DNA of 42,815 nucleotides, from positions 1 through 42,815 of IMG/VR virus record IMGVR_UViG_3300015245_000053. One strand, 5' to 3'. Positions 5,847 through 34,298 of this stretch are shown here, in pieces. The position numbers were made by a program, and so were the translations under genes. Position 1 is the first letter of the stretch; every line of letters begins with the position of its first letter. Source of the stretch: a virus. The notes under the pieces are model-generated. The model worked only from the letters and a program-made list of their open reading frames with translations. It was not told the origin of the DNA and searched no databases.

Positions 5847-6581
5847 ATGCCTATTCTGAGTCCTAGCGGGATACAGTTTTTCATTGGAGATTTGGTTAAC
5901 GAAGTTCTTTTGCGAACTGAGAATCGTACCAACGACTCCTCTCGTGCAGCGATTTGGCTTCGTGACGCGCTTTTGGAGATAAGTGGCTCTCCTGATTATA
6001 GAGACGACTTCGTGGAGTTGGAGGAACTTGGGCCTGTTTTTAATTTGACTGCTAAACAACAAGAGTATGATGAGACTCTTCTCGCCCCAGCGGGTGACAT
6101 AGTATCCGTTGTAGACGATATTCTAATCTGGGTTAACTTTCCAACAAACTCAGTTCGCCGGAAGCTGGATACGAGTCATTATCAGAAAACCGACAGATTT
6201 ACTCCCGTACTCTCGCTGCCTACGGAATGGTATCGTCATTCTACGAATATCGGATTTAACCCTACTCCCGATAAAGCGTACCAAGTGCAGTGGCGTATGG
6301 TTAAGCAACATCCGATTAATGATAATGTCTTGACACAAACTCAGATCCTACTTCCCCGCGATTGGAATGAAGTTCTCGTATGGTCGGCAGTGTACAGAGG
6401 CTTTTCTGAGTTGATGGAATTTGAAAAGGCCGCCAAAGTATATCAACTTATTCACGGTGATCCTAAGGACTCATCCCAACCTGGTCTTATATACTCTGTT
6501 AAGAGAAAAAGGAGAAAAGAACAATGGAGAATGGAGAGTCGCTTATCAATGACTCGAAGACCGTACATGTTCGGGAACTAA
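5847..6581 (+). CDS. Head-tail adaptor / tail-completion candidate
   Basis: 244 residues, ATG after GAGGGGGTCTAG. Residues 1-75 are helical and acidic; residues 80-180 contain beta strands and aromatic motifs (VRRKLDTSHY, PTEWYRHSTNIGFNPTPD). The C-terminus is helical and basic and ends TRRPYMFGN. This arrangement, an N-terminal helical part followed by a beta domain with a WYR...F.P.P region, resembles proteins found beside stabilisation/tail genes in environmental podoviruses that are thought to close the portal. Its last 58 bases overlap the HNH gene that follows, in another frame, which suggests the endonuclease gene invaded the 3' end. Function inferred from context. Confidence 0.5.
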   Translation: MPILSPSGIQFFIGDLVNEVLLRTENRTNDSSRAAIWLRDALLEISGSPDYRDDFVELEELGPVFNLTAKQQEYDETLLAPAGDIVSVVDDILIWVNFPTNSVRRKLDTSHYQKTDRFTPVLSLPTEWYRHSTNIGFNPTPDKAYQVQWRMVKQHPINDNVLTQTQILLPRDWNEVLVWSAVYRGFSELMEFEKAAKVYQLIHGDPKDSSQPGLIYSVKRKRRKEQWRMESRLSMTRRPYMFGN

Positions 6582-6991
6582 AAATTTGTAGAAAATGTCT
6601 TCTGTCTAAGCCCAAAACTGAGTTTCATAAGGCTCGTACTAATGTAGGTAGGTTTATGCATTGGTGTAAAACGTGCTGGAATAAGAGAGCAAATCAACAT
6701 AAGATTAATCTTCGTCAAACGGTTTTAAAGATCCTTTGTCCAAATGGGGTAAAGTGTCAATGTTGTTGTGAGTATAGAGACGAATTTATGACAATAGATC
6801 ATATTAAAGGGCGTAAGAAAGTGAGCGATACCGGAAGTAATCTATATACAAGGCTTATAGCCCTACATAAACTTGGTATTCCTTTGGAAACGGATTATAG
6901 AGTTCTATGCATGAATTGTAATCTTTCGTATGGAAGAAGAGGGTACTGTCCTCATGAAGTAGAACGTAAAAATTGCTTACAGGTGGCCTAA
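6524..6991 (+). CDS. HNH-type endonuclease with N-terminal zinc knuckle (free-standing homing type)
   Basis: 155 residues. ATG preceded by AAAAAGGAG, placing the start inside the previous gene. Residues 22-50 carry CRKC, a Phe/His segment and CKTC (a zinc knuckle). Residues 73-79 hold a Cys cluster (CPNGVKCQCCCEY region), followed by the HNH core: IDHIKG, a spacer, then YRVLCMNCN and SYGRRGYCPH. These cysteines and histidines fit a beta-beta-alpha metal nuclease. It sits between structural genes with a 58-base overlap upstream and a two-base gap downstream, typical of a mobile endonuclease gene and not of a virion part. Confidence 0.75.
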   Translation: MENGESLINDSKTVHVRELKICRKCLLSKPKTEFHKARTNVGRFMHWCKTCWNKRANQHKINLRQTVLKILCPNGVKCQCCCEYRDEFMTIDHIKGRKKVSDTGSNLYTRLIALHKLGIPLETDYRVLCMNCNLSYGRRGYCPHEVERKNCLQVA

Positions 6992-18111: not shown

Positions 18112-18272
18112 TCGGGGACTACCTCCTTTAGAATGTCTTCGACTAGTTCTTCAACACGGGTGTGAAAAGGGGTATAGTAACTGTTACGTCTGTCATCGAT
18201 TCCGTTTCTTTCGTAACGGTCGAGGAACTCTTCGATTCTAGTTATTTGAGCACCACTAAGTCGTATTGTCAT
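18057..18272 (-). CDS. Unknown 71-aa helical protein
   Basis: ATG at 18272 with GGAGAAATAG upstream, overlapping the HNH stop (ATGA). The 3' end overlaps the next gene by 55 bases. Charged and helical, with an opening (RLSGAQITRIEEFLDRYERN) that looks like a short coiled coil, and a Ser/Gln-rich end that falls in the overlap. No family recognised. Before the HNH gene was inserted upstream it would have followed the ABC-GNAT gene directly. Confidence 0.6.
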   Translation of the reverse strand: MTIRLSGAQITRIEEFLDRYERNGIDDRRNSYYTPFHTRVEELVEDILKEVVPECNPSEHLTQKEQRSVSI

Positions 18273-18592
18273 CTATTTCTCCAGCTCTTTCCTCTATTGC
18301 TGCCAAATCTCCCTTTCGATACGGCGTCTTTCGTGTTATCTCTAGAAGTGCCTTTGAAAAGGTGATCTGGATTAAAGCAGGGTGGGTTATCGCATGTATG
18401 TAATATCTTGAAGACTGTGTTTTGTTTTAAGCCAAGAGCTAGGCAACCTATATACCTATGAACGAGACGATGCTTTCCATCTAGATATGTAAAGCCATAA
18501 CCGTCTCTATTTCTAGTTCCGGTCCACTCCCAGCATCCTGAGGGAGTTACTAGCCTTTTTGAAAGAAGTTTTTCTGGTATCTCAATTTCCAT
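18269..18592 (-). CDS. HNH_3-type homing endonuclease
   Basis: 107 residues. The pattern is typical: GCWEWTGTRNRDGYG, HRLVHRYIG, then HTCDNPPCFNPDHLFKGT with DN..DAVSKGR. CWEWTG, LxHxCDNPxCxNPxHL and GT..DN are the family landmarks, and all expected Cys and His residues are present. It is squeezed between the ABC-GNAT gene (overlap 11 bases) and a small helical gene (ATGA overlap), as free-standing homing genes often are. It would cut DNA of phages lacking the gene and spread by repair. Confidence 0.85.
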   Translation of the reverse strand: MEIEIPEKLLSKRLVTPSGCWEWTGTRNRDGYGFTYLDGKHRLVHRYIGCLALGLKQNTVFKILHTCDNPPCFNPDHLFKGTSRDNTKDAVSKGRFGSNRGKSWRNR

Positions 18593-20057
18593 TGATTAAT
18601 TTCTCCGCTGCTTCTCGGTTCATCGAACTTCCGATAAATTGAAACACAGCGCATCTTCGGTTCCCAAATCCTCCCACTGTAGATGTTTTTCCTCGTGATG
18701 GTGAAAAGCTCCCGGCCTCCTTAACCTGCATCCAATCCTTACTACGCTGATAGGATCGGATCCAGGCTGGATGGTTTGGATAGCTATGTAGCCTTTTCCC
18801 CAAAGCTCGATAGGCCGAAGCGATTGTATTTGCAAGGACAAAAGCAAGTCCGAGTCCCTGGAAATCTGGAAGAGTGACCATTCTGGTGAACCCCACGATG
18901 TCGGATACTTTCGGATGCGGTCTGTAAAGGACTCCACACATAGCAGCAATTCGATAGGTTGGCTCTGCTGATCTGGGTATAGATACCACGCTGATTTGCT
19001 GGTTAGATATCGATTCATGTACTGTTGATTTTGTGGTACTTGCATCTGTTGATAAAACGCTTGAGGTTGCTTCGGACTTAATCCCTGTGAAAAATTCGGC
19101 ATTGGTCTCGGCGGTGCCTGACCCGCTATCCTCGCATTCGTCATCTTGGCGAAATACCACTGACGAATTGCTATCGCGCTGCGGCAATACTGAGGGTCGG
19201 GGAAGCCGTAGTCCAGTGCCATTTCCTCCGTTACTTCCACTCCCGTCGGAAGATGAACGAAGATATACGTCACTATATTCAGTTGCCAGTCCGGAGTCCA
19301 GTTGTGAGGATTCAACGAAGAGCCCATAACACCTCGCAGCGCGGTTTAGATCGGCGCTCATATAGTGAAAGTCTTTGAATAATTGCCAAGTTTTGTATTG
19401 CACTCTTGAAACTGAGACTGTAATTGGTGGTCTTGATTGAAGAGACCTCCAGGTAAACTTGCATGGGTTGCCTGGCTCTAGAATCCAATCAGGCTGGAGC
19501 CAGGGGATTATGTCGTAGTGACAGGATGCGGCTATGAACTTCTTATACTCACATCCTCGAATATACTTCTGAATCGCGTGACAACCGAATTGCGCTACTT
19601 GTCTATCAACGACAGAGGTAAATTCATCAACACAAATTGGATTAATAGGAGAAAGTAGCCTTCTTGCAACCTCGACTCTAAATCTTTCTCCATTACTAAG
19701 TACAGAATAGGGTCGTAAGTAGGAGGGAATCGTATTAAAACCCACGCTTTGACATACACGGGCGATATCCTCCATTGAGTGGTCGGCTGCGAAGTCATCT
19801 ATTACGGATTTATGATGCCACTCTAGAAGTTCGGAGCCACCAAAAAGATTATTTAGGAGAAGTGTTTTACCAGACCCGGAGGGTCCTACTATCAGTCCTA
19901 TATTCCAAGGACGGTCGTCTAGCGGAAGATCGCCGCTAAGCGAAACGCTTAGTTTGGTTTTCGCAGGGACTTCGAACATTGAGCTAAGGAGCTCGGTTCG
20001 GATGGTGGAGTCGATTTCGACTTCTTTATGAATGTTAATCTTCAAGAAACTCTCCAT
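18582..20057 (-). CDS. ABC-type ATPase fused to GNAT acetyltransferase domain (COG2401-like)
   Basis: 491 residues from the ATG at 20057; a TTG six codons upstream is also open. The N-terminal half is an ABC ATPase: IVGPSGSGKT Walker A (about 58-65), LSNGERFR signature (about 121-128), PICVDEFTS Walker B (about 141-149), and an AASCHYD H-loop. From about residue 225 (YKTWQLFKDFHYMSADLNRA) a GNAT domain begins, resumes at YRIAAMCGVLYRPHP and carries the acetyl-CoA loop LPDFQGLGLAF. Between these GNAT halves lie about 120 Ser/Thr/Asp-rich residues (DNA about 18960-19320), absent from the usual layout of this fusion. There is no membrane segment, so it is not a transporter. Its substrate is unknown. 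Confidence 0.8.
   Translation of the reverse strand: MESFLKINIHKEVEIDSTIRTELLSSMFEVPAKTKLSVSLSGDLPLDDRPWNIGLIVGPSGSGKTLLLNNLFGGSELLEWHHKSVIDDFAADHSMEDIARVCQSVGFNTIPSYLRPYSVLSNGERFRVEVARRLLSPINPICVDEFTSVVDRQVAQFGCHAIQKYIRGCEYKKFIAASCHYDIIPWLQPDWILEPGNPCKFTWRSLQSRPPITVSVSRVQYKTWQLFKDFHYMSADLNRAARCYGLFVESSQLDSGLATEYSDVYLRSSSDGSGSNGGNGTGLRLPRPSVLPQRDSNSSVVFRQDDECEDSGSGTAETNAEFFTGIKSEATSSVLSTDASTTKSTVHESISNQQISVVSIPRSAEPTYRIAAMCGVLYRPHPKVSDIVGFTRMVTLPDFQGLGLAFVLANTIASAYRALGKRLHSYPNHPAWIRSYQRSKDWMQVKEAGSFSPSRGKTSTVGGFGNRRCAVFQFIGSSMNREAAEKLINGN
18620..19327 (-). CDS. Possible overprinted ORF inside the ABC-GNAT gene
   Basis: An alternative frame of the same strand starts with ATG at 19327, has GCGAGGTGTT just upstream, and stays open for 235 codons. 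Its start coincides with the left edge of the insert in the GNAT domain. Residues 1 to about 125 read like a genuine folded protein (NWTPDWQLNIVTYIFVHLPT, EEMALDYGFPDPQYCRSAIA, then a Pro/Gln linker), whereas the ABC-GNAT frame here is low-complexity Ser/Thr/Asp. The C-terminal ~110 codons lie over conserved GNAT sequence and look like shadow translation. Either a real overlapping gene, or the fossil of a foreign gene inserted out of frame. Confidence 0.35.
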   Translation of the reverse strand: MGSSLNPHNWTPDWQLNIVTYIFVHLPTGVEVTEEMALDYGFPDPQYCRSAIAIRQWYFAKMTNARIAGQAPPRPMPNFSQGLSPKQPQAFYQQMQVPQNQQYMNRYLTSKSAWYLYPDQQSQPIELLLCVESFTDRIRKYPTSWGSPEWSLFQISRDSDLLLSLQIQSLRPIELWGKGYIAIQTIQPGSDPISVVRIGCRLRRPGAFHHHEEKHLQWEDLGTEDALCFNLSEVR

Positions 20058-20295
20058 ATCTTGCTCTAAAGGCAATCATAGCGTTATTAAGAAGACGCAG
20101 AGTTGTTTGCGCTAACACAAATTGTCCGTCAGGAAGATCGACTCTTAGTACTACTACAGGTCTGCCTTCATCTGTTCCTTTCGTTAGAATTCCTACCGCT
20201 GATAAACTGTGCAGCTTACCAGGATACATAGGACCTTCTGTAGAGCTACAAAGTGGGTGTTTTTCTACGTCTAAAGATATTTTAAGAGATGTCAT
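20035..20295 (-). CDS. Unknown 86-aa protein coupled to ParB-like gene
   Basis: Start set at the ATG at 20295, which overlaps the ParB-like TGA by four bases; a GTG at 20313 is the other choice. The sequence MTSLKISLDVEKHPL, VGILTKGTDEGRPVVVLRVD, PDGQFVLAQTTLRLL and a helical end suggests a small alpha/beta fold with a central sheet. The 3' end overlaps the ABC-GNAT start by 23 bases. No cysteine or metal motif of note. It may be a cofactor of one of its partners. Function unknown. Confidence 0.6.
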   Translation of the reverse strand: MTSLKISLDVEKHPLCSSTEGPMYPGKLHSLSAVGILTKGTDEGRPVVVLRVDLPDGQFVLAQTTLRLLNNAMIAFRARYGEFLED

Positions 20296-21020
20296 GCCAC
20301 AATCGCCTGACACTTAAGTCCGGCGCTCCTGAACTGTGTTAGTAAAACAATCTGCTGTGCTTCGCTTTCGCATTCTACGAGAATTTTGTACTCCAATGGC
20401 TTAGCCATATGTACGCTATGCGTGCCTGCTTGTATCTTGAGCGCCAGCTCTAGTTTCCTTCTCGCCGCTTCGCGTGAAGGTTCGTTCTTTAGAGACGGAA
20501 TCTTCTCGATTAACGCCGCCATCTGTAAATCTTGACTTGTCGAGCCAACGGCTTCATTTAGAAGCTCGGAGAGTTTACGGACACCGAAGCCTGCGGGTTT
20601 TAGACCTTGTTGTACAGTACGAGAAGGCTGGCCAGGGATAGGAGCGCCGTAGATGCGCTGATAAACTTCGAGAAGCCTGGCTTTGCCCTGAACCTCCTCC
20701 GCCCAGTTCATTTGTTTACGACGAAGATTCTCTTCAAGCTCTACGGCGTTTCGTCGGTACTCATCCGTTGCGAGATCATCGCGCCAGAGGAAGTGTTCAG
20801 CGTGTACTAAAGTAAGAACACCGAGTTTCTTTAGAGCTTCGTACCTGCGGTGACCAGCGACTAGTTTGATTATTGTTAAATCATTTTCCTGAAACGAAGT
20901 TAGCACTATGGGCTGAATAAGCCCATTTTCAGAGATTGACTTGGAGAGCTGCCCAATATCTCCAAGGTCCTTTCTCATTCTATTTTCGATTAGAACCTCG
21001 TTGATATCGACAGTCTCCAA
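20292..21020 (-). CDS. ParB/KorB-like DNA-binding protein
   Basis: 242 residues, TTG start after AAAAGGAG. Residues 1-105 are the ParB N-terminal (ParB/sulfiredoxin) domain: a DINEVLI opening, DIGQLSKSISENGLIQPIVL, the VAGHRRYEALKKLG box that binds CTP in true ParB proteins, and VELEENLRRKQMNWAEE. Residues 145-200 look like the helix-turn-helix domain (VRKLSELLNEAVGSTSQDLQ, then KIPSLKNEPSREAARRK). The last 45 residues form an alpha/beta tail. No ParA is present. Dyad B sits just upstream of its ribosome site, so it may control its own expression, as KorB-type proteins do. It could be a regulator, a partition protein or a replication factor. Confidence 0.75.
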   Translation of the reverse strand: METVDINEVLIENRMRKDLGDIGQLSKSISENGLIQPIVLTSFQENDLTIIKLVAGHRRYEALKKLGVLTLVHAEHFLWRDDLATDEYRRNAVELEENLRRKQMNWAEEVQGKARLLEVYQRIYGAPIPGQPSRTVQQGLKPAGFGVRKLSELLNEAVGSTSQDLQMAALIEKIPSLKNEPSREAARRKLELALKIQAGTHSVHMAKPLEYKILVECESEAQQIVLLTQFRSAGLKCQAIVA

Positions 21021-21780: not shown

Positions 21781-22665
21781 CTAAGTTTTTACAAGACTCT
21801 TCACTACAATCGGCCCTTGGGCAGGAACCGAAATTCGAGAGCGGTGCTTTGCGATCATCTTTGAGATATCAGGTTCTTCGATAGCGTCCAGCTTCATGGA
21901 AGTACCGGAATCCATTGAGAAATCCGGGAGGACGTAGACGCGAGGAAGAAACTGAACTGCGTTACCGTTGATTACTTGAGTGAGTTTGACACGCCATATA
22001 TCCGTGAAGTATTTGAGTAGAAGATCCTTATATCTAACTGGGAATACGGAAACACGACCCGTAAACTTCGGTTTCTCTATCGTAGAATCAGGAGTCTCCT
22101 CAGCGCGTTCGTGGAAGGTGCAGAAAACATTAACTGGAAGTGCGAGAGCACGCATGACGATGGATTCTACACCTTGCATCTCCGCGTTCCAAGCATCGAA
22201 ATTCTTTGGAATATGAATGGAGAGTTTCGGGCCGATCTTGATTTCTCTTTTTAGATCATTGGAGTTATAAAGCTCATATGCCATTATAACTCGTCCGAAG
22301 GAAGCCATGGAGTCGAAAATGAGATTATTGACTTTCGTGCCTTCGGGGACTTCTGGGAAGAGGCGTGTACCACGCTTGTCTTTGAGATTATAGAGGTCTA
22401 ACGAAGTTTCTAGTCCGGTCATTATGTCCAGGACTTCTTCGGCTGCATCCGGGAGCATATATCCGCCCTGGGCGTTCTTGAAGGTGATGGCGTATACGTC
22501 TTTGCGACCGGAGAGAACTTGCTTTTTTTGATCGAAGTCCAGAAATAACTTCACCCCTGGGGCGGTGGAACAGAGTATGGATTTACCATTATTCTCTGGA
22601 CCGACCACGGCGACGTGAAGAATGTCGGTGGCGACTTCGGTTTCCATTGATCGCGCGTCAATCAC
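21781..22665 (-). CDS. Sak4-like RecA-fold recombinase ATPase
   Basis: 294 residues; GTG start at 22665 chosen because GAGAGGTGCC lies upstream (ATG six codons later is weaker). Walker A is GPENNGKS at residues 22-29, followed by PGVKLFLDFDQKK. The Walker B strand is NNLIFDSMASFG (about residues 113-124). A VNVFCTFHERAEE strand carries a sensor-like His. Length and one-domain RecA core fit phage Sak4/AAA_24 proteins, which promote strand annealing or exchange with a phage SSB. It lies in the same run as a PD-(D/E)XK nuclease and an ssDNA-binding candidate, forming a plausible recombination module. An HNH gene has inserted directly upstream. Confidence 0.65.
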   Translation of the reverse strand: MIDARSMETEVATDILHVAVVGPENNGKSILCSTAPGVKLFLDFDQKKQVLSGRKDVYAITFKNAQGGYMLPDAAEEVLDIMTGLETSLDLYNLKDKRGTRLFPEVPEGTKVNNLIFDSMASFGRVIMAYELYNSNDLKREIKIGPKLSIHIPKNFDAWNAEMQGVESIVMRALALPVNVFCTFHERAEETPDSTIEKPKFTGRVSVFPVRYKDLLLKYFTDIWRVKLTQVINGNAVQFLPRVYVLPDFSMDSGTSMKLDAIEEPDISKMIAKHRSRISVPAQGPIVVKSLVKT

Positions 22666-23035
22666 TTTTTGGCACCTCTCTTAACGGCTTTAGATGTTTA
22701 TTCTTTCCTATATACTTTTCTCCCACACGTCCTGGGGCCTTCTCAAGATTCTTACCAGGGCCATGAAGTAGATGTTTATTGTAATGTTCTCTTGTGGAGA
22801 CTAACTCAAGATGTTCTGGGTTTACGCAAAGTTTATTACCACACTTATGATGTAAAAGTTTTCCCTTTGGAATAGGCCCGTTTACACGCTCCCATGCGAA
22901 TCTATGTGCTTGAATAGATTTCCCTTTGACTCTCCACTGAGCATACGTAGCTTTTGGGCTCCCAAATCTGAATCTCCAGAGCCAACAAGTCTCTGTTTTT
23001 ATAATGTGATAGTCAAAAGGTCGTTGACTAATCAT
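22658..23035 (-). CDS. HNH_3-type homing endonuclease
   Basis: 125 residues. Diagnostic parts: ETCWLWRFRFGSPKATYAQW, HRFAWERVNGPIPKGKLLHH, then KCGNKLCVNPEHLELVS with the HH, Cys pair and NPEHL expected of this family, followed by a Lys-rich tail that may be a DNA-binding segment (NUMOD-like). The gene overlaps its neighbours by eight bases on each side, between a 63-aa gene and the recombinase. A free-standing mobile endonuclease, related in type to the one at 18269-18592. Confidence 0.85.
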   Translation of the reverse strand: MISQRPFDYHIIKTETCWLWRFRFGSPKATYAQWRVKGKSIQAHRFAWERVNGPIPKGKLLHHKCGNKLCVNPEHLELVSTREHYNKHLLHGPGKNLEKAPGRVGEKYIGKNKHLKPLREVPKSD

Positions 23036-33693: not shown

Positions 33694-34005
33694 ATGCCAT
33701 CCTCCGACAGCGCGCGCTACGACGATGCGAAAGAAGTAAAGCCGAAGGATGCGCGAACTGCGTCCACTGGATCTGTCCATGACCCACGGAGTGGGAAGTA
33801 TCCTTCCACAATCGAATTTGCTTCGCATGAAGACGAAAATGCCTCGAAAGTAAATAGCGGCAGGATGGCGCGTCGCCCCTCCGGGAAGTTCAGAGGCGCA
33901 GCTCATGGCTTTCATACTGTCAAATGCACTTGCAGTAAACATCCGTGTACCTGCGGTACGGAGAAGGCGCATGAGAGTTTGCAACACTGTAATGTGAATA
34001 TGTGA
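33694..34005 (+). CDS. Small disordered protein with C-terminal Cys/His knuckle
   Basis: 103 residues, ATG after ACGGAGTCTAGCT. Residues 1-70 are charged, polar and Ser/Lys/Asp-rich with no hydrophobic core (like the basic protein at 12831). Residues 73-103 contain CTCSKHPCTCGTEKAHESLQ with five cysteines and several histidines, which could bind zinc. The end overlaps the next gene (TGATG). It lies between TerS and TerL and may be a minor head or packaging factor. No family recognised. Confidence 0.55.
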   Translation: MPSSDSARYDDAKEVKPKDARTASTGSVHDPRSGKYPSTIEFASHEDENASKVNSGRMARRPSGKFRGAAHGFHTVKCTCSKHPCTCGTEKAHESLQHCNVNM

Positions 34006-34298
34006 TGAAATCGGACGAGCCATGTGTTCGCTGTGGTAGTCAGGTGAATATACAAAAGCATCATATTGTATATTCATCCCCTACCGTCCCTGTCTGTTTT
34101 AACTGTCATAAACAGGTAACACTCTTGAATACTGTTGTAGCAAGGATTTTCGGAGGTAAGCTAGACGATAACATGCGTCTTAGGATCTGGGAAATTTTTA
34201 ATGATATTACACAGGAGTACTGGTTTCAGAATTCTATACTCAGATTCTTCATCCCTAAGAAACCCTATTCTTCTAGCCAAGAAGAAAGACTGGAGTAA
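34005..34298 (+). CDS. HNH-like zinc protein next to the large terminase
   Basis: 97 residues from the ATG at 34005 (GTG at 34002 is an alternative). Residues 6-40 read PCVRCGSQVNIQKHHIVYSS, then PVCFNCHKQVT: CxxC, the HHI pair and CFNCH as in short HNH endonucleases, although the final HNH histidine is displaced. In several phage groups an HNH protein encoded beside TerL is needed for cos cleavage and packaging. Here the next gene is TerL, joined stop to start, so a packaging role is as likely as a homing one. Residues 60-97 form an unrelated helical tail. Confidence 0.65.
   Translation: MKSDEPCVRCGSQVNIQKHHIVYSSPTVPVCFNCHKQVTLLNTVVARIFGGKLDDNMRLRIWEIFNDITQEYWFQNSILRFFIPKKPYSSSQEERLE

Follow-up and report, generated by a model that had tools for sequence, protein, structure and literature searches.

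Does the long insert in the GNAT domain of a phage ABC-GNAT fusion do no more than separate the two halves of an enzyme domain, or does it form part of a second gene that is read in another frame? Standard annotation does not see nested genes and, to our knowledge, few have been proven in dsDNA phages. In phage lambda, Rz1 lies wholly inside Rz in the +1 frame and is made by internal initiation, its product being a lysis lipoprotein. The locus considered here lies in a 42.8 kb virus record, the whole of which was analysed and is referred to as the window. An initial annotation had pointed to extra codons in the GNAT domain with a plausible second frame, and had offered two readings: overprinting of a gene, or capture of foreign coding DNA that is out of frame yet still leaves a working linker. 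We conclude, with a probability of roughly 80%, that positions 18620–19327 of the minus strand carry two genes in two frames, and that the second of these, which we call f2, is a nested gene.

Results

The ABC-GNAT gene and its neighbourhood

The host frame of the overlap is that of an ABC-ATPase-GNAT fusion (18582–20057, minus strand), an open reading frame of 491 amino acids which starts at an ATG at 20057. It belongs to an operon-like row on the minus strand of the window, comprising genes for a PD-(D/E)XK nuclease, an AAA ATPase, a ParB-like protein, ABC-GNAT, an HNH protein, a UDG/exonuclease and DNA polymerase A. The ParB-like gene (20292–21020, minus strand; Pfam ParB_N, 1.2e-7, above cut-off) lies upstream of ABC-GNAT in the same operon, and is found 5' of it in every relative examined. 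The position of ABC-GNAT in the operon is the same in seven relatives, and the surrounding gene order is broadly alike in all. The ABC domain matches Pfam ABC_tran (PF00005) at 2.8e-6, above cut-off, and the fusion matches PHROG 11143 at 8e-84. In the window protein the ABC motifs are present and the GNAT half contains a QGLGLA acetyl-CoA motif. The Pfam match to GNAT is only 0.039 in the window, where the domain is split by the insert, and reaches significance (6.9e-5) in one of five aligned members. Comparison with genome contigs for the host of the window phage gave only distant matches, nearly all of them to Planctomycetes.

The ABC ATPase of the window, joined to a predicted GNAT domain beside a ParB-like gene, recalls a phage module of ABC ATPase, GNAT and ParB-like gene that is predicted to acylate DNA bases (PMC7824862, section 3.4.7); Tenacibaculum phage pT24 is named in connection with it (PMC7824862). 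No second gene is reported inside the genes of that module (PMC7824862), whereas the clade of the window has f2. Phage pT24 encodes a homologue of the ABC part, and Gordonia phage Jace has ParB and a 364-amino acid ABC protein in the same order as the window. The pT24 homologue of ABC-GNAT (L199, 1456–2628) is broken into two open reading frames within GNAT, close to the f2 insertion site; in the Lactococcus P335 and Oenococcus phages (L200 and L201), ABC and the following open reading frame are separate genes with a 4-base overlap.

The ABC-GNAT protein of the window is only 72% identical to that of relative L002 while its neighbours are mostly 82–97% identical (97% for ParB), so between these two phages ABC-GNAT changes, or is swapped, more quickly than the genes around it. 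A 92-residue open reading frame lies between ParB and ABC-GNAT (20035–20313, minus strand) and the same gap in L002 holds one in a different frame, MazG-like by reading; the gap is therefore a variable slot. Directly downstream of ABC-GNAT is an HNH endonuclease gene (18269–18592, minus strand; HNH_3, 1.7e-4, below the Pfam cut-off), which is at the same site in L003 (2221–2577) and not at that place in L002. The GNAT C-terminal halves of L002 and L003 are near-identical, with 11% third-position differences versus about 40–50% upstream, which suggests recent recombination near a homing-type gene. Further open reading frames resembling HNH or zinc-loop endonucleases were found by sequence reading (22658–23035, minus strand; 6524–6991 and 34002–34298, plus strand), and suggest that homing genes may have invaded this phage group repeatedly.

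An insert in a turn of the GNAT domain

Relatives of the gene were collected by a direct scan, which gave four (L002–L005), and a profile scan, which gave 80 loci; two further scans added L097 and L167. L002, L003 and L004 have both the insert and the same +1 open reading frame, and L005 has neither. The insert (about 18957–19313, minus strand) occupies a GNAT turn after the sequence ARCYGLFV, and is present only in the window, L002, L003 and L004. In the ABC frame of the window it adds about 119 residues, with a high content of Ser, Thr, Asp and Gly, between ARCYGLFV and YRIAAMCG; in the f2 frame it encodes a domain and a Gln/Pro-rich linker. The distance from FHY to VTLPDxQG is constant at 46–51 residues across 40-odd ABC-GNAT genes, compared with about 165 in the window and 155–191 in L002/L007, L003/L008 and L004/L009. 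Because this spacing is otherwise fixed, the insert is real, and the initial estimate of some 120 extra codons was accurate. It was not found in any other relative, the spacing across the insertion site being near-constant in all other genes. As the four insert-bearing genes are on four separate contigs, it is not an assembly chimera. A transposon or repeat was also considered and rejected, there being no direct, inverted or tandem repeats.

The host protein continues to be conserved beyond the insert. The GNAT C-terminal half (18620–18956, minus strand), which is overlapped by the f2 tail in the +1 frame, retains an ABC-frame codon-position pattern of 22/18/51 between the window and L002, and the GNAT half is 63–92% identical within the eight-member clade described below. 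The suggestion that the insert leaves a working linker is thus in keeping with a conserved protein downstream, which makes it likely that GNAT still works. The window and L002 share 86% identity across the insert and about 73% in its flanks, a difference for which recombination may account.

A +1 frame held open in eight diverged genes

The f2 frame runs for 235 codons from an ATG at 19327 to a TGA located 38 nt before the ABC-GNAT stop (18620–19327, minus strand). The frame and start codon had been correctly recognised, although the reading of about 125 residues stopped well short of the end at 18620. Nor does the ATG sit exactly at the edge of the insert, as had been thought: it is about 14 bases upstream, within the conserved GNAT codons C-Y-G (TGT TAT GGG). 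It is preceded at a distance of 4 nt by a Shine-Dalgarno-like GAGG (19328–19335, minus strand; GAGGTGTTATG), and GCGAGGTGTTATGG is identical in all four insert carriers. The Shine-Dalgarno duplex energy is -7.2 to -7.7 in seven of the eight clade members and weak in L097 (-3.6); for comparison, 12% of other out-of-frame ATGs reach -7 or below. A +1 stop lies six codons 5' of the ATG in the window, and 6–10 codons 5' in all eight genes.

The clade comprises the four insert carriers together with L010, L011, L097 and L167, which are without the insert. In a maximum-likelihood tree, the window, L002–L004, L010, L011 and L097 form one clade (support 92/85), within which the carriers group together (99/91, or 92/74 once L167 is added); L167 is the nearest non-insert gene to the window by tree path. 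Since the carriers group together and genes outside the clade lack the insert, it is most simply explained as a gain. The f2 ATG and TGA are at the same place in all eight genes. An ATG at this position is also present in some outgroups, and the position of the stop is not independent evidence, since the TGA is fixed by a conserved Met codon in GNAT and the A that comes after it. Where the insert is absent, f2 is 117 codons long in all four genes; where it is present, the length is 226–262.

In the C-terminal half of GNAT, 8/8 clade genes have an open +1 frame versus 1/62 other ABC-GNAT genes. The single exception is a gene at 66% GC, and the median of the others is 3 stops. The open frame is more than a product of chance. 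The +2 frame over the same half contains 4–11 stops in the eight clade genes, and the other sense frame has 11–14 stops within the insert of the carriers. In the ABC part the +1 frame contains 7–15 stops in the four carriers and 3–7 in L010, L011 and L097, with none 3' of the f2 ATG. Shared ancestry does not explain the open frame, because third codon positions are about 50% different between most clade pairs. In a tree-matched neutral simulation, which kept the GNAT residues and codon usage and began from an open root, all eight genes stayed open in 0/4000 runs at each of three divergence levels, and the four genes without the insert were jointly open in 0–0.2%. An overprinted gene, one of the two initial proposals, is therefore borne out by genes with and without the insert alike, and f2 predates the insert.

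The opposite strand had also been described as open across most of the insert. This is so in the window (19033–19329, plus strand), but in L002, L003 and L004 this antisense frame contains 2, 3 and 1 stops, respectively; a conserved antisense gene was accordingly rejected and the open stretch put down to chance.

Selection on f2 within the insert

Across f2 codons 1–70, the window and L002 differ at 29 bases. These produce 9 residue changes in f2 against a simulated mean of 19–21 (minimum 12–13; 5000 runs each, 15,000 sequences in all, none below 12), whereas the ABC-frame linker over the same codons shows 20 residue changes against a neutral expectation of about 18.7. Within the insert the f2 frame is under purifying selection, and the ABC-frame linker drifts at the neutral rate. 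Because this test takes the number of changes as given, the higher identity of the insert does not affect it. The f2 motif FxHxxTGVEV(T/S)xx(M/L)xxD(Y/H)GFPxP is largely kept as far as L003 and L004, where f2 is 29–44% identical and free of stops, while the ABC linker is unalignable. A linker shared in the ABC frame, with a second frame free of constraint, would have spoken against the initial proposal; the opposite was found.

The C-terminal half of GNAT gives a different picture. Synonymous sites there are as fast as upstream, with no slowdown seen, so in this half the case for f2 rests on its openness. Residue conservation in the f2 tail is modestly above controls (mean z about 3.5 versus 2.0 for outgroups and 0.8 upstream), an excess that is partly due to stop avoidance; adding controls weakened the residue-level claim. 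The tail must remain open, but its sequence is weakly constrained at best.

The predicted f2 domain

Residues 8–72 of f2 (19112–19306, minus strand) are predicted to form a folded domain, for which AlphaFold2 gave a mean pLDDT of 88.9 and a pTM of 0.73 when the domain was modelled alone. The model consists of two strands, a short strand, a helix and a long helix. The full-length model is confident only at residues 10–67, and pLDDT is below 50 outside the domain. Many residues are invariant in the four sequences, namely W7, T13, H18, T21, D32, G34-F35-P36, P38, A44 and W50-Y51 (numbered along the domain stretch). L004 has an additional 54-residue N-terminal extension, which in the f2 frame reads as a charged, Leu-bearing, helix-like segment.

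Searches of Pfam, PHROGs, NCBIfam, PADLOC and PDB sequences yielded no convincing family for it, and neither did tblastn in phages or plasmids. The domain was found nowhere else in about 90 related contigs, the one partial match (11.8 bits, with a stop) being judged spurious, and Foldseek returned no match to the fold in BFVD (best E 0.79) or the PDB (best E 1.9). Reading of the f2 starts revealed no lipobox in any of them, and no zinc-finger match was shown.

Discussion

We think it probable that f2 was born by overprinting and then grew through the insertion of a folded domain which makes sense in the nested frame alone, with the host enzyme absorbing a neutral, disordered linker; the states before (117 codons) and after (226–262 codons) both survive, and the fold is an orphan. 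The older of the two genes encodes an ABC-GNAT enzyme with a predicted role in modifying phage DNA, and it is the GNAT half of this enzyme that is overlapped. Comparison across the clade shows f2 to be the younger, overprinted as a 117-codon open reading frame over the GNAT C-terminal half in the clade ancestor. Later, on the branch leading to the window, DNA would have entered a surface turn of GNAT, immediately past the start of f2. In the f2 frame this DNA is predicted to give a small folded domain and a Gln/Pro-rich linker, and in the ABC frame a linker which drifts neutrally, as the selection analysis shows, and which is presumably disordered and tolerated by GNAT. Such a site would leave room for a linker in the host enzyme and for an N-terminal domain in the nested gene. 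Translation of f2 most likely begins by internal initiation at ATG 19327 on the ABC-GNAT mRNA, via a GAGG Shine-Dalgarno site formed of GNAT codons, and both proteins would then be made together.

The main rival to internal initiation is +1 ribosomal frameshifting near GCG-AGR-TGY-TAT, which would fuse the ABC domain and first GNAT strands to the domain and tail of f2. In its favour, all eight genes have an f2 frame that is already open a few codons 5' of the ATG, and in seven an AGR Arg codon directly precedes the Cys-Tyr codons of the ATG. Against it, L167 has CGG instead, the +1 stop is just 6–10 codons upstream, and none of the known +1 shift signals, among them the CUU-UGA stop context, is present. 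With a properly placed ATG in every clade member and a Shine-Dalgarno match in all but one, we consider frameshifting improbable. It is harder still to accept that the insert is an ordinary disordered GNAT spacer whose second frame is open through chance or codon bias. Ser/Thr/Asp-rich linkers are common, and synonymous recoding of the insert alone keeps the frame open in 2–23% of trials per sequence. However, it is f2 and not the linker that is under selection in the insert, the open frame extends over the GNAT C-terminal half in every clade gene and in none of the simulated sets, the ABC parts of the carriers are strewn with +1 stops, and the domain is predicted to fold with confidence.

Similarly little credence is due to a relic, in which a scrap of foreign gene was recently captured out of frame and looks coding, like a pseudogene, while making no product. 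The make-up of the f2 domain is that of a normal globular protein and the insert is more alike than its flanks between the window and L002, both of which speak for such a capture. A relic would be expected to decay, yet L003 and L004 keep the motif despite their divergence, the substitutions that arose after the window and L002 parted have tended to spare f2 residues, and the f2 frame was open before the insert in L167, L010, L011 and L097. A nested gene, overprinted before the insert and read from its own start, remains our preferred reading.

Like lambda Rz1, f2 is a tailed-phage gene nested wholly within another in the +1 frame and, most likely, internally initiated; unlike Rz1 it is without a lipobox, has ABC-GNAT rather than Rz as host gene, and includes an inserted domain. 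It also resembles overprinted viral genes generally, which yield novel and fast-evolving proteins from another frame of a gene that existed before them (PMC8227390). It differs from them in having also gained an inserted folded domain, read in its own frame, and in that the states before and after the insertion still exist.

As to function, the likeliest role for f2 is in the ParB/ABC-GNAT DNA-modification module, as a small partner protein or a regulator, which we offer tentatively and as conjecture. A loose parallel is provided by com/mom of phage Mu, where a GNAT-type DNA-modifying enzyme acts together with a small protein encoded on its own transcript; this protein, Com, has a zinc finger and binds mom mRNA (PMC6483171). 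In contrast to Com, f2 is nested in the enzyme gene and has neither a zinc-finger match nor detectable homology to any family. There is close to an even chance that f2 is translated but serves an unrelated function (e.g. anti-host or anti-defence) and merely shares the operon. No homology ties it to modification, and accessory proteins are frequent among the products of overprinted viral genes (PMC8227390, PMC6195259); full nesting in one enzyme gene across the clade nevertheless suits co-production, without proving it.

Although only four genes carry the insert, f2 itself is backed by eight diverged genes, in which the order of events can be read: the frame opened, and a domain was then inserted. 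The f2 domain offers a fold without a match in the libraries searched, and the predicted ABC-GNAT DNA-modification module gains a possible and unsuspected partner. More broadly, f2 shows how an overlapping gene can escape the limits imposed by the frame of its host, by lengthening at a turn in which any sequence is acceptable to the host protein.
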